From Rubripirellula sp. (GTDB lineage: Bacteria > Planctomycetota > Planctomycetia > Pirellulales > Pirellulaceae), in contig JAAXJB010000083.1 of assembly GCA_012270065.1 (NCBI GenBank), positions 1 through 32,737 on the forward strand: a stretch of DNA of 32,737 bases, written 5' to 3'. How positions within the stretch are numbered: the stretch's first letter is position 1; the number at the start of each line of letters is the position of its first letter. Of the stretch, positions 6,244 to 12,944 are shown one piece after another. Under the pieces are notes generated by a model. The model searched no databases, was not told where the DNA came from, and worked only from the letters and a program-made list of their open reading frames with translations. The translations under genes and the position numbers were made by a program.

Positions 6244-6439
6244 GCAGGTCGAAAGCTTGTGAGACGCGACGAGTTAGCTTGTTGAAAGCGCTTCCGATTC
6301 GATGCCATTTCAGGCCGGTGATGCTTCAGCATCATTCCTGAACAGAATCATTCCTGCACCATGGGTTCGGATCACCCGATGTAGCTTCTTGGGCTCGTGT
6401 TTTGTGCTTGCATTCAAGCGTGGTGGAAGTTACTTTGCA

Positions 6440-6904
6440 ATGCAAAGTAAATATCTGACTACTCACGTTTCAGCACACATGACGCCACTTCAAGAAACTC
6501 TGTTACAGATCTTTGTACCGGGCGCAATCGTTTCCGCTGGTGTGGCGTTCATCGCTGGGCGAGCTCGTGGATGGGCGGTGCCCCTCGTCTTGTGTGGTCT
6601 GAGTGTGCTGATTTTCTGGGTTACATTTTTTCTTGGTTTGGATCTGGGGTATCGCGCCTGGCAGTCGATGCCGGATCCACCGGATGCTGCGTACAGTGAT
6701 GCATCTCCCTCGGGAGTGTTGATTGCCGGTTGGGTTCCGGGGGGGATTTACGCAAGTTTCTGGTATGGGTTGTCGTGGCTGGTGCGGCTTTTTGTCTGGA
6801 AACCGAGAGTATTGCAGGCAGAGCTAGTGACGGATTCGCTCGAGGAGGGCATTGGGCCGCGTGCGGTTGAGACAGGCAACGCGTACCAGACGCCAGGTTC
6901 CTGA
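6440..6904 (+). CDS. Small planctomycete membrane protein, function unknown
   Basis: The frame opens at 6302, but its first 46 codons look non-coding, so I place the start at ATG 6440 (154 residues), with 'ggtggaag' about 11 bases upstream; ATG 6479 is an alternative (141 residues). Hydrophobic segments 'IFVPGAIVSAGVAFIAG', 'VPLVLCGLSVLIFWVTFFLGL' and 'GVLIAGWVPGGIYASFWYGL' suggest three or four transmembrane helices. The cytoplasmic tail ends 'GNAYQTPGS', similar to the NPYQ-like tails frequent in small planctomycete proteins. No function can be assigned. It is probably transcribed with or after the PQQ-repeat gene, 196 bases upstream. Confidence 0.6.
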   Translation: MQSKYLTTHVSAHMTPLQETLLQIFVPGAIVSAGVAFIAGRARGWAVPLVLCGLSVLIFWVTFFLGLDLGYRAWQSMPDPPDAAYSDASPSGVLIAGWVPGGIYASFWYGLSWLVRLFVWKPRVLQAELVTDSLEEGIGPRAVETGNAYQTPGS

Positions 6905-9110: not shown

Positions 9111-9414
9111 GGTGGTTATCCGGCAGGGTTCAAAGTGTAGGAGCAGAGGGGGTGACGCCGATGACGCCTTTGCAGATTCACATTATGGGTGATATTTTCG
9201 GAGTAGACAACTCTCGCGAGAGTGGTGATCGTGGGTGGAAATCTGTGTGCCACCCGTGATCTGGGTAATAGAAGCCGTGCGTACCTGTCACTCCGGACGC
9301 GCGTTCGCTGCGATACAGTGATTGAAGCGGTGGAAGCCCGACGGCGATTTTTATATCTCGCTGGTTCGATTACCGTTCGGGTTGGAAAATGTTCGCTTGT
9401 CAGCGGGGCCGATC
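9111..9414. other. 304-base divergent promoter region
   Basis: This gap separates the divergent sugar-dehydrogenase fusion and larA-like genes. The frame of the latter stays open upstream to 9322, but the composition there and the position of conserved family residues favour the later start. I see no repeat or RNA gene. Confidence 0.45.
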
Positions 9415-10737
9415 ATGAAAATACTTCTGAATTACGGGCAAAACGGGTTTGCACTTGTCTTGCCAGAAGGCGTAACGGCAGATGTCATTGAGAAGCCGGT
9501 CATGCCTGTTCTGAGTGATCCCGGGGGGACTGTCAAAGCTGCTCTGGAGTCCGCACTGACGAAGAAGTGCCAGGAGGTGTTCGAGCAGGCATCAGGCATG
9601 TCACGAGATGCAAGCCGCCGCAGAAAAGATGCCACGGTCTGTATTGCTATTTGCGATATCACGAGGCCGGTTCCCAACTCACTTTTTCTGCGACCCATGA
9701 TCGAAGTTCTACTTCAGAATGGAATCGATCAAAAAAATGTGACGATTCTGGTCGCAACCGGACTGCATCGCCCCAATGTTGGACAGGAACTCGAGGAACT
9801 GATTGGCGATCCGTGGGTCCTGGAAAATGTCCGTGTCAAAAATCATGACGCGAGGAATGATCAGGAACATGTGCTGCTGGGGAAAACGCAGAAACGTGGA
9901 ACGGTGGTCAGGATTGACAAGGAATTTGTCAATGCTGCCATCAGAATTGTCACAGGGCTGGTTGAACCGCATTTCATGGCGGGATATTCGGGTGGCCGTA
10001 AGGTCATTGCTCCGGGTCTGGCGCATGCTGAAACCATCACCACTTTTCACAGCTCACGGTTCATGGCCGACCCGGCTGCCGTGAGCTGTAACCTTGTCGG
10101 CAACCCTTTGCATGAAGAACAGCTTGAAATCGTTCAACTTGTGGGTGGTGCCATGGGTTTGAATACTGTTCTCGATGATCAACGTCGGCTTTCATTCCTC
10201 AACTTTGGCGAGATCATTGCTGCTCATGAGGATGCTGTGGACTTCGTTCGCAGCTATTGCCAGGTTACTGTTGCAAAAAGATTCAACACCGTCGTCACCA
10301 CGGCAGCCGGATACCCACTGGATAAAACCTATTACCAGACGATCAAGGGAATGGTTGGCGGCATGAATATTCTCGAGCCCGGGGGAGATCTGATCATCGC
10401 TTCCGAGTGTAGCGAAGGTTTCGGTTCACCTGAATTCATGGATGCTCAGCGGCGTCTGGTCGAACTTGGCCCTGACGCTTTCCTGACAAGCCTGCTTGGA
10501 AAAACGCACGCTGATGTTGATGAGTGGCAAACCCAGATGCAGTTGAAGCCGATGGCCATTGGAAAAATCCATCTGTATTGTCCGTTGTTGAAGGAGAGTG
10601 AGTGGGCATTGACCGGTGTCAATCGCGTTGACTCCATCGAGCAGGCAATCAGCGAAAGCGTACGCAAACATCGCGACCCTCGGATAGCAGTCATTCCAGA
10701 AGGTCCCTATGTGGAACCAAGAGTCGGGTTGCTGTGA
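9415..10737 (+). CDS. larA: LarA-type nickel-pincer-nucleotide racemase/epimerase
   Basis: Starting at ATG 9415 the protein has 440 residues, close to the usual LarA length of about 425. LarA racemases move hydride through a nickel-pincer nucleotide tethered to a lysine; the characterised member interconverts D- and L-lactate, and homologues act on other 2-hydroxy acids. The key residues are visible with the spacing of the Lactobacillus enzyme: His118 in 'TGLHRPN', His186 and the cofactor lysine Lys196 in 'HFMAGYSGGRK', and His212 in 'TTFHSS'. The 186-196-212 spacing is identical to the family's 174-184-200. No larB, larC or larE cofactor-synthesis gene is next to it, so the cofactor must come from elsewhere and the substrate is uncertain. 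Confidence 0.88.
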   Translation: MKILLNYGQNGFALVLPEGVTADVIEKPVMPVLSDPGGTVKAALESALTKKCQEVFEQASGMSRDASRRRKDATVCIAICDITRPVPNSLFLRPMIEVLLQNGIDQKNVTILVATGLHRPNVGQELEELIGDPWVLENVRVKNHDARNDQEHVLLGKTQKRGTVVRIDKEFVNAAIRIVTGLVEPHFMAGYSGGRKVIAPGLAHAETITTFHSSRFMADPAAVSCNLVGNPLHEEQLEIVQLVGGAMGLNTVLDDQRRLSFLNFGEIIAAHEDAVDFVRSYCQVTVAKRFNTVVTTAAGYPLDKTYYQTIKGMVGGMNILEPGGDLIIASECSEGFGSPEFMDAQRRLVELGPDAFLTSLLGKTHADVDEWQTQMQLKPMAIGKIHLYCPLLKESEWALTGVNRVDSIEQAISESVRKHRDPRIAVIPEGPYVEPRVGLL

Positions 10738-11059
10738 ATGTTGCGCTGCAACGAGAACGTTCGAGAGGCATGGGGTATTTGAGAGGTGCGGGGTTTGAGT
10801 GTTTTGCGGTTTGAGAGTTTTGCGGCTTGCGGGGTGAAAACATTTGAGAGTTGCAGGGTGGTAGTGCAGTTGCTTTCCACGATGCTACAATCCGCCAACG
10901 CTGGATCGACTGGCGTCATCCACTTGCACGATGACTGTGGACCCGGGCGTATTCCGGTTTTAACAACTGGTTCTGCGGCTCAGTGGTTTGGCAATGGTGG
11001 AGTGTCGAAATTGTTCTGCATGGGCTTGAAACTGTAATTGATTCGAGGAGTGAATATTC
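10738..11059. other. 322-base intergenic region before the selenoprotein gene
   Basis: This gap holds a degenerate repeat block (10777-10861, listed separately) and the leader of the predicted selenoprotein gene. Short open frames here are not convincing. A small GTTGC/GCAAC hairpin at 10740-10752 follows the larA stop but has no T-tract. Confidence 0.45.
10777..10861. repeat. Degenerate short direct repeats (TTTGAGAG-GTTGCGGG type)
   Basis: The stretch contains four imperfect copies of a unit close to TTTGAGAGTTTTGCGGG. Copies begin near 10778, 10794, 10810 and 10843; the second and third are directly adjacent with a 16-base period and differ at one position, and the fourth follows a short spacer. 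It is G-rich on this strand and lies between larA and the selenoprotein gene. It is likely a slippage-derived non-coding repeat. Confidence 0.6.
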
Positions 11060-11413
11060 ATGGCTAAGACAATCGGGTGGAGTTACCACCGCAAGGGCTG
11101 AACGTCCTGCACCCGTGCGCAAGAGTTTCTTGCGCCTCGCAAAGTGAAGATTTCTGAGGAGATCGACGCTCGTAAAGTCCGTTATGGAGACGCTGAAGCC
11201 ATCGGCCTGCTTGAAAACAAAACAAGCTTGATGGTTGCCAAAGGTAAGAAAGTCACCAAGGTTGACTTGAAGAAGGCTGATGTTGATCAGTCGGAACTGG
11301 TTGCTTTGATGCTGGGTCCCACCGGGAACCTGCGAGCTCCGACATTGATCGTGGGTAAAAAAGTCATCGTCGGTTTCAATGAAGATCTGTACGCAGAGGT
11401 TTTCGGCGGTTGA
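11060..11413 (+). CDS. Predicted selenoprotein: ArsC/Spx-type thioredoxin-fold protein with Sec14 in a U-T-S-C motif
   Basis: The gene opens at ATG 11060, with GAGGAG at 11045-11050 nine bases upstream, and runs to TGA 11411-11413 if the in-frame TGA at 11099-11101 (codon 14) is read as selenocysteine. The product is then 117 residues. Around codon 14 the protein reads 'GWSYHRKG-U-TSC-TRAQEFL', which aligns directly with the CxxC-containing start of Spx/ArsC proteins (first beta strand, CTSC, then helix). The C-terminal 'LRAPTLIVGKKVIVGFNED' is the family's Arg-Pro-containing strand and 'GFNED' motif, so both sides of the TGA belong to one domain. A perfect SECIS-like hairpin follows the TGA. 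Expected role: cytoplasmic thiol/selenol redox enzyme, perhaps a reductase; the substrate is unknown and arsenate is not implied. Without recoding, only an N-terminally truncated 89-residue frame from GTG 11144 would be called, and it lacks the active site. Confidence 0.85.
11114..11139 (+). promoter_or_regulatory. Bacterial SECIS-like hairpin downstream of in-frame TGA
   Basis: GCGCAAGA at 11117-11124 pairs perfectly with TCTTGCGC at 11128-11135, leaving a GTT loop at 11125-11127; if the closing A-T pair opens, the loop is AGTTT. Two further pairs (11114/11139 and 11115/11138) are possible below a small internal loop. The loop G is 24 bases past the TGA. Bacterial SECIS elements are stem-loops inside the coding region just after the UGA, with a G among the first loop bases and the loop about 16-37 bases downstream; this one fits on all points. 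It would bind SelB. Confidence 0.8.
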
Positions 11414-11581
11414 TATCCGCGTGAGACCGCGAGACTTGGGTGTGCGGACGTCAGACACGTGAGCACGGCCGCGAGGGCTGTTGGTTGGCTTGTCCCATCA
11501 CGAGGGTCACCGCAGAACCGGCGTAGCGATTGTGTCTTGAGCATGGTTTCTTCACTGCGGCTTCAGCGATACGTGCTTGAG

Positions 11582-11634: not shown

Positions 11635-12858
11635 TCAAGGATTTGGCAGGCAACGTTGAAGTGTCATCAAGGCATAGCCAGTGCCGTAGGGCTGGTGGTA
11701 GTCATACAGCGGATAGTCCCACCACGAACCATCTTTCTCCTGCCTGTCGAGCATCAGATCAGCGAGCATGGATTGATATGGGCCCCTCTGCGCCTCGGGA
11801 AGCAAGTCGATGCAAAGTGCAGCGTAGTAGTGACCGTAGTAGTAGAAGTAGCCAGCTACCTGCATCCATGATTCGTGAGGCACCGGACGTTTGCGACCAA
11901 TGTCAAGCCAGCCGTTGCGCACGTACAGGCGATACAGCCAGTTCTTGAGAACATTGTCGGTGATTGCCTTGTCTCCCCAATACCGCAGCGCACAGTTGCA
12001 GCACTGCGATCTACCCAGGGAACCGCCGGGGCGGTTAATGCCCCTCATCGGTTGGTACTGCAGATATTCTCCATAAAGATAGGAGAAGTCCGGTTTTTGC
12101 TGACGCAATAATGCAGCGATCGCCCTTTTGACGATTCGTTCAGGCGGTGCAACACCGATCGCTTTCGCTTCGGCGAAGGCAATCAATACGGTTCCATTGA
12201 CGAAGCTGATCGATGACGACGTTGGCTTTCGGGCTTCGTAGCGGAAATCATAATAGCCCCATCCCCCATCCACCGATTCGTATCGGGTAAGTTTGTCGTA
12301 CTGCATCTCGATCAGTTGTACGATCCGTTTCTGCAGGGGTTTGTCTGCGTCGTGACGCTTGTGCATTCGAACAAGTGCCTGAATCGAGTAGGCATGGCCC
12401 CATACGTTGTAAATCGCATCCCCGGTTGCACGACGCAGGTCAGGCAAATGTTCCAGCAGCCATTCTTCACCGCGTTTCAATGCGTTCACTGCAGCCGGGT
12501 CGGTGGATTTGGTTTCGATCAGCGCCGAGACACAGAGAGCTGTCGTTGCTGTTCGAAATGCATGGTGAGCTCCGGGAACAGGAGCGTAGATGTTGAGAGA
12601 TTTGGTTCGAGTGGGTGAACCCCATGATCCGTTGGGATTTTGATCTTCAATGAGAAAAGCGATTCCACGCTTGATGGAAGCTTCGATCTCTTCACGACCA
12701 GGTGGATCCAGCTTCGGCAAGACAGGGGGTTTGCTGAAGTCCAAAGGGTTTGACAGTATTTCCGCCGCCGCATCGGGTTCTTTTGCAAAGCATGTAACCG
12801 GGGTGACCACACAGGTAATGATCACGCAGACTGCGAAAGCGGCTGATAATCGTTTCAT
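11635..12858 (-). CDS. Secreted prenyltransferase/squalene-oxidase-repeat (alpha/alpha toroid) protein
   Basis: From ATG 12858 the protein has 407 residues and a signal peptide (hydrophobic 'AAFAVCVIITCVVTPVTCFA'); a start eight codons earlier at 12882 is possible. The mature part shows QW-type repeats of the terpenoid-cyclase toroid: 'IEDQNPNGSWGS', 'YESVDGGWGYYDF' and 'DRQEKDGSWWDYP', each with a helix pair between them. The Asp-rich catalytic motif of squalene-hopene cyclase (DxDD) is absent, and export is also unlike a cyclase. It is therefore best regarded as a toroid-fold secreted protein of unknown role, common in planctomycetes. It lies 86 bases downstream of the HlyD-like adaptor gene on the same strand and may share its transcript. 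Confidence 0.8.
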   Translation of the reverse strand: MKRLSAAFAVCVIITCVVTPVTCFAKEPDAAAEILSNPLDFSKPPVLPKLDPPGREEIEASIKRGIAFLIEDQNPNGSWGSPTRTKSLNIYAPVPGAHHAFRTATTALCVSALIETKSTDPAAVNALKRGEEWLLEHLPDLRRATGDAIYNVWGHAYSIQALVRMHKRHDADKPLQKRIVQLIEMQYDKLTRYESVDGGWGYYDFRYEARKPTSSSISFVNGTVLIAFAEAKAIGVAPPERIVKRAIAALLRQQKPDFSYLYGEYLQYQPMRGINRPGGSLGRSQCCNCALRYWGDKAITDNVLKNWLYRLYVRNGWLDIGRKRPVPHESWMQVAGYFYYYGHYYAALCIDLLPEAQRGPYQSMLADLMLDRQEKDGSWWDYPLYDYHQPYGTGYALMTLQRCLPNP

Positions 12859-12944
12859 GTCAGGGCAGGACTTTTTGTGCATGGATGCTGGATGGAGTAC
12901 CGCACCGCGTAGGCATGCGGCCCGTCAGTTTACGCAGTGTGCAA

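Follow-up and report, generated by a model that had tools for sequence, protein, structure and literature searches.

The forward-strand frame at 11060-11413 of the window (the whole 32,737-nucleotide stretch of Rubripirellula sp. DNA analysed here) is a single conserved gene with TGA as codon 14 (11099-11101). It very probably encodes a genuine selenoprotein, one that adds a member to an already known selenoprotein family. Translated with this TGA as selenocysteine (Sec), the gene encodes a protein of 117 residues in which Sec is residue 14, reading MAKTIGWSYHRKGUTSCTRAQ...VGFNEDLYAEVFGG-stop, with the active-site surroundings ...YHRKG-U-T-S-C... The product is probably a redoxin, acting as a selenol-disulfide oxidoreductase, from the ArsC/Spx/YffB branch of the thioredoxin fold, Sec being inserted at the UGA. 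The initial annotation had proposed an ArsC/Spx-fold selenoprotein with a UTSC site, and family scores, Sec genes, the codon pattern and the hairpin support that proposal. Sequence, genome and RNA evidence back a selenoprotein where ORF calling with the standard code truncates the gene. What is new here is the distribution in the Planctomycetota, at least four supported Sec/Cys exchanges and the evidence at RNA level.

The ATG is preceded, as had been claimed, by a Shine-Dalgarno-like motif; this is GAGGAG (11045-11050, + strand, read directly from the sequence), located 9 nt upstream. The table 11 listing of ORFs of at least 80 aa contains two standard-code ORFs over this stretch, an 89-aa GTG ORF at 11144-11413 and a 180-aa antisense ORF at 10916-11458 (- strand); these are the two products which the initial annotation expected from gene callers. 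The antisense ORF (180 codons), listed mechanically, was rejected as a gene and judged spurious: within 11060-11413 its frame carries 0, 1, 2 and 1 stops in four close relatives, i.e. it is interrupted in three of them, and it was therefore judged not conserved. The selenoprotein gene, for its part, shows purifying selection, with pS of 0.63-0.70 and pN of 0.12-0.16 against four close relatives. Codons 1-13, upstream of the TGA, have 3-4 synonymous and 0-1 nonsynonymous differences in the same comparison, and this mostly synonymous change indicates that the part ahead of the TGA looks translated too.

The codon at the active site was compared in 64 planctomycete loci: that of the window, those of four named MAGs, and 59 others, which were the 29 and 30 best-scoring ones of two genome searches. 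It is TGA in 50 of them, TGC in 12 and TGT in two, and xxCys follows it in 64/64 loci, all of them being UxxC or CxxC. The in-frame UGA is therefore aligned with Cys of homologues (50 TGA versus 14 Cys codons), which is one criterion used for bacterial selenoproteins. The claim of a TGA at 11099-11101 within an otherwise intact gene is confirmed, the homologous loci having TGA, TGC or TGT at exactly this codon in 64/64 cases, and inspection of the homologues' codon at this site, a check proposed along with that claim, gave Sec or Cys codons throughout. A true stop at the TGA (a pseudogene, a sequencing error or a 13-residue product) agrees with standard gene calling, which halts there, but we regard it as highly improbable: a base-calling error is hard to reconcile with TGA at the same codon in 50 loci, the remaining 14 have Cys codons, selection acts on both sides of the TGA and the genome encodes Sec machinery. 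Pseudogene and sequencing error were rejected on codon conservation and two-sided selection.

The gene's own terminator is TGA as well (11411-11413, + strand, from the translation); since terminator and codon 14 are the same triplet, UGA would carry two meanings inside one gene, which argues against a global UGA reassignment. Decoding of UGA as another amino acid, e.g. Trp, under a reassigned code would account for the open frame through UGA and for nothing further, and its probability is close to nil: UGA-form genes end in TGA in 27 of 50 cases, the window gene included, the other 14 homologues have Cys and none has Trp, and a tRNA-Sec with UCA anticodon is present. Global reassignment was rejected, as TGA serves as terminator in the selenoprotein gene itself.

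The genome of the window (7.0 Mb, 122 contigs, 99.5% complete) was searched for the Sec machinery, whose presence had been named as a check of the selenoprotein reading, and all the components sought are there: tRNA-Sec on contig C29 (70.8 bits, cut-off 47, UCA anticodon) and SelA (515 bits), SelB (297 bits) and SelD (260 bits), each above its cut-off. SelD, SelA and SelB are encoded close together on contig C73, at roughly 93-99 kb. The open frame that holds the SelD match (C73 93274-94158, locus L020) has 754 aa, roughly double the length of SelD, and SelD in this genome may be fused to another domain.

Above-cut-off matches to the family model (NF041106) were found in 64/294 genomes of a phylum sample and in 44/396 of an order sample, the window genome belonging to both. 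In the phylum sample, a strong selA (E about 1e-120 or better; the others had 1e-11 or worse, or no match) was present in 53 of the 55 genomes with an above-cut-off UGA form versus two of the nine with the stop-free form only (one-sided Fisher p 2e-6); genome G045, which has both forms, was counted among the 55, and below-cut-off matches were omitted, including those of five genomes with TGA in the match (G065, G107, G223, G018, G072). No such separation by selA is seen in the order sample (32/37 UGA versus 5/7 stop-free, p 0.31). The UGA-form genomes with no strong selA number seven: G264 and G173 in the phylum sample; G520, G574, G624, G317 and G319 in the order sample. They are mostly incomplete assemblies, though G520 is listed as 99% complete.

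NCBIfam is the model set used by NCBI for naming proteins. Its model NF041106, 'ArsC family (seleno)protein' (ArsC_rel_Se_1), matches the window protein with 132 bits (cut-off 85) over model positions 1-107 of 107, and it is matched by 57/57 aligned members at E 0.001 or better. The window protein is thus a full-length match to a UxxC family with Sec first, it has the same motif, and nothing was found that excludes membership. The view that such a gene is unannotatable by default is not supported, NF041106 being named a (seleno)protein and its match to the window protein being far over the cut-off.

The family itself is in print. The available text of a 2026 review catalogues an 'Arsenate reductase-like protein, NF041106, UxxC' with reference 61 and credits NF041106 to the 2008 Global Ocean Sampling (GOS) survey (PMC2398784); in the review's reference list, the 2008 GOS paper stands directly ahead of number 62 (PMC13188914). 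In the accessible part of that survey there is an 'Arsenate reductase 2' (cd03032, UxxC, 42 sequences), which shares UxxC and fold class with the window protein, these being metagenome sequences likened to it by description (PMC2398784). The Sec arsenate reductase of the Sargasso Sea, in the available text of its report (PMC1088965), and the GOS ArsC 1 likewise have Sec in an ArsC fold; their motif is UxxS, whereas that of the window protein is UxxC. ArsC-like selenoproteins of deltaproteobacteria are covered in the accessible text of PMC1794560. As for the phylum, one substantial paper on Planctomycetota selenoproteins was found by the literature search, and the main text of this paper, the part available, describes planctomycete selenoproteins with no ArsC one among them (PMC4807772); a term search of the accessible text of PMC5029168 and PMC12013277 gave no occurrence of 'arsenate', 'ArsC' or 'Planctomycet'. 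The literature search found no paper naming a planctomycete member of the NF041106 family. The initial annotation had held that this member appears undescribed, a claim of novelty that is not supported: no such paper was found, but the family is described in the available texts of the review and the survey (PMC13188914, PMC2398784).

The AlphaFold model of the protein has a pLDDT of 92 and a pTM of 0.85. The nearest solved proteins are Spx and YffB, Spx being matched by the family profile at E 1.1e-9; Foldseek matches are to Spx, YffB and glutaredoxin folds, with Spx at the top (E 2e-4, TM 0.52, i.e. a TM of only about 0.5). The residues invariant in the 57-sequence alignment are Y9, R11, Sec/Cys14, C17, A37, G62, G86, P87, G89, L91, R92, P94 and G105. 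The predicted fold, together with the invariant Pro94 at what would be the cis-Pro position (by alignment, not geometry), is consistent with a thioredoxin-fold redoxin. In the mechanism we propose, a hairpin after codon 14 would recruit SelB and Sec-tRNA in translation, and Sec would go in at UGA 11099-11101 (residue 14, the first position of UxxC) in place of termination. Sec14-Thr-Ser-Cys17 would then sit at the start of the first helix, and Sec would attack an oxidised substrate such as a disulfide; Cys17 (11108-11110, + strand) would resolve the selenenyl-sulfide, and a cellular reductant would reset the protein. The roles of Sec14 as nucleophile and Cys17 as resolving partner are suggested by what is known of this fold's chemistry; Arg92 and Pro94 may shape the active site, and the location is presumably cytosolic. 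The NF041106 family is small and easy to assay, and the occurrence of Sec and Cys versions in the Planctomycetota makes it possible to test among related proteins what advantage Sec has over Cys.

YffB (1rw1, 2kok) resembles the window protein in fold and length and is without the ArsC arginine triad; the YffB treated in the available text of PMC3169414 has a single cysteine, in contrast to the Sec plus Cys of the window protein. Spx (1z3e and others) has the fold, the place of CxxC, Arg92 and RxP in common with it. An Spx-like transcriptional regulator, in which the UxxC switch would sense oxidation and the protein would bind the C-terminal domain of the RNA polymerase alpha subunit (alpha-CTD), is in keeping with Spx proteins being the closest solved relatives, with the switch motif and Arg92 being common to both families and with the usually basic residues at the positions matching Spx R60 and K62. 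The scores with the models made for Spx are nevertheless far below the cut-offs (Spx/MgsR model TIGR01617, 33.7 bits versus 75.05; PRK01655, 30.1 bits versus 123), and the residues of Spx which contact RNA polymerase are not conserved in the window family. According to the accessible text of PMC2801614, Spx depends on its Gly52 both to contact the alpha-CTD and to activate transcription of trxB, and it also needs Tyr263 of the RpoA alpha-CTD. Gly52 adjoins a 4-residue stretch of Spx that has no counterpart in the window family, and there is no invariant Gly between A37 and G62 in the 57 sequences; the RpoA encoded in this genome has the sequence VRANNCLE, in which Asn takes the place of Tyr263, two residues before the Cys matched by eye to C265. 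Judging from these sequences, Spx function is disfavoured, as Gly52 has no conserved counterpart and RpoA has Asn for Tyr263, and we consider it improbable.

An arsenate reductase of the ArsC type would explain the Pfam ArsC score of 35.9 bits, above the cut-off of 24, and its HX3U is similar to HX3C, the first part of the ArsC motif; the full motif is HX3CX3R, and E. coli ArsC has a triad of Arg60, Arg94 and Arg107, in the available text of PMC3169414. However, the glutaredoxin-dependent arsenate reductase model finds one of 57 members at E 0.001, and weakly (9.6e-4). One counterpart of the E. coli ArsC triad is invariant in the 57 members, Arg92 (judged from Spx/YffB alignments, not from an ArsC superposition), and the sole other invariant Arg is R11, just ahead of the active site; the Arg of X3R is absent in the window protein, which has Thr18, and a Pfam scan of the eight neighbouring genes of the window detected no ars gene. 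With Arg92 alone of the triad having a conserved counterpart, arsenate reduction appears disfavoured and, at the level of sequence, quite improbable.

A bacterial SECIS-like (bSECIS) hairpin is found at 11117-11135 (+ strand). It reads GCGCAAGA-GUU-UCUUGCGC, a perfect 8-bp stem with a GUU apical loop (11125-11127), and 23 nt lie between the UGA and the loop. The bSECIS rule, as given in the available text of PMC13188914, comprises a loop of 3-9 nt, a stem of 4-16 bp, G in the first two loop positions, a spacing of 16-37 nt and an energy of at most -7.5 kcal/mol; the window hairpin conforms to it (loop 3, 8 bp, spacing 23, -10.8 kcal/mol). A search of Rfam returned nothing at E 1 for 10900-11500. 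Taken alone, the fold in the window does not stand out in general tests: 20/200 dinucleotide shuffles fold as well and the z over the whole 48 nt is -0.23, while its local z is -1.41, 47/500 synonymous shuffles being as stable, yet only 6/500 reaching its stem length.

Stems that have at least 6 pairs and a loop starting 20-28 nt past the codon are present in 47/50 UGA genes versus 1/14 Cys genes, and the loop starts at 23 or 24 nt in 43 of those 47 hairpin-bearing UGA genes; the three UGA genes in which the hairpin is absent by the applied rule are those of L039, L040 and L041. The local 24-nt folding energy is below the mean of synonymous shuffles in 44/50 UGA genes (mean z -1.36) versus 6/14 Cys genes (mean z +0.22), a contrast that is partly post hoc, the local test having been devised after the hairpin positions were seen and after the test on the whole 48 nt, which does not separate UGA and Cys genes (p 0.27). 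When only perfect stems are counted, 17/50 UGA and 0/14 Cys genes reach the published energy limit, and 42 UGA and four Cys genes reach a limit of -4 kcal/mol. Codon choice also reflects the hairpin, to judge from the excess of CTT at codon +10 (32/50 UGA genes, compared with 57/522 of the Leu codons elsewhere in those genes). After correction for kinship only four independent Sec/Cys pairs are left, and the link between hairpin and UGA form does not reach significance (median p 0.25).

On the tree of the 64 proteins six Sec/Cys changes are needed, four of which are forced by well-supported branches; at least four exchanges within the Planctomycetota thus appear supported by these sequences. 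The tree is unrooted, it was built from 118 columns including the hairpin-encoded residues, and it gives no direction of exchange; Sec forms prevail on either side of its midpoint (19/26 and 31/38). Genome G045 holds a stop-free match of the NF041106 family (C12:140623-140940) plus a UGA match (C5:56898-57212), indicating that both versions can coexist.

In this planctomycete series of repeated exchanges the RNA signal may dictate the protein sequence, a reading to which we give slightly less than even weight. Upkeep of the hairpin would hold the Sec forms to AQEFLA-like residues just past the active site, and the Cys forms, released from the hairpin, would drift to other residues there. Position +7 is Gln in 42/50 UGA genes versus 1/14 Cys genes, and it is Asp in 11/14 Cys genes and also in 7/50 UGA genes; part of this Gln/Asp contrast could stem from shared ancestry. 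If the reading were true, loss of Sec would leave two traces, one at the catalytic residue and one in the segment that follows it, where constraint is relaxed.

The gene looks monocistronic, starting 325 nt after the upstream gene and being followed by a gene on the opposite strand. No promoter-like site was found; the one terminator-like site lies on the opposite strand and is at chance level. A plasmid search gave no match. The upstream gene (9322-10737, + strand) encodes a LarA-like nickel-pincer racemase family protein (Pfam Lar_N and LarA_C), for which several nickel-pincer racemase models matched, all below their cut-offs. Neighbourhoods were compared at 45 loci (the window, L052-L055 and L086-L125, with L055 and L086 from the same contig): the LarA-like gene, adjacent in close relatives only, recurs there along with other flanking genes, and no partner gene is conserved beyond these relatives. 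With no shared partner, gene context gives no function. A cluster of 10 loci with similar neighbourhoods was not taken as linkage, as it includes two distant loci at other places. The distant loci L120 and L121 have genes within 10 nt on the same strand, such neighbours not being common between loci. In L090 and L092, from genomes of the window's family, a ferrochelatase gene (PF00762) directly precedes the homologue on the same strand, at distances of 42 and 48 nt, and a link to haem, from these two of the 45 neighbourhoods, is possible. Elsewhere in the window, a 200-aa ORF at 6302-6904 has no Pfam or NCBIfam match at E 0.1; three close loci carry relatives of it in the corresponding position. 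The gene at 11635-12882 (- strand, 415 aa) gives short squalene-cyclase-like matches and a TED match below threshold.
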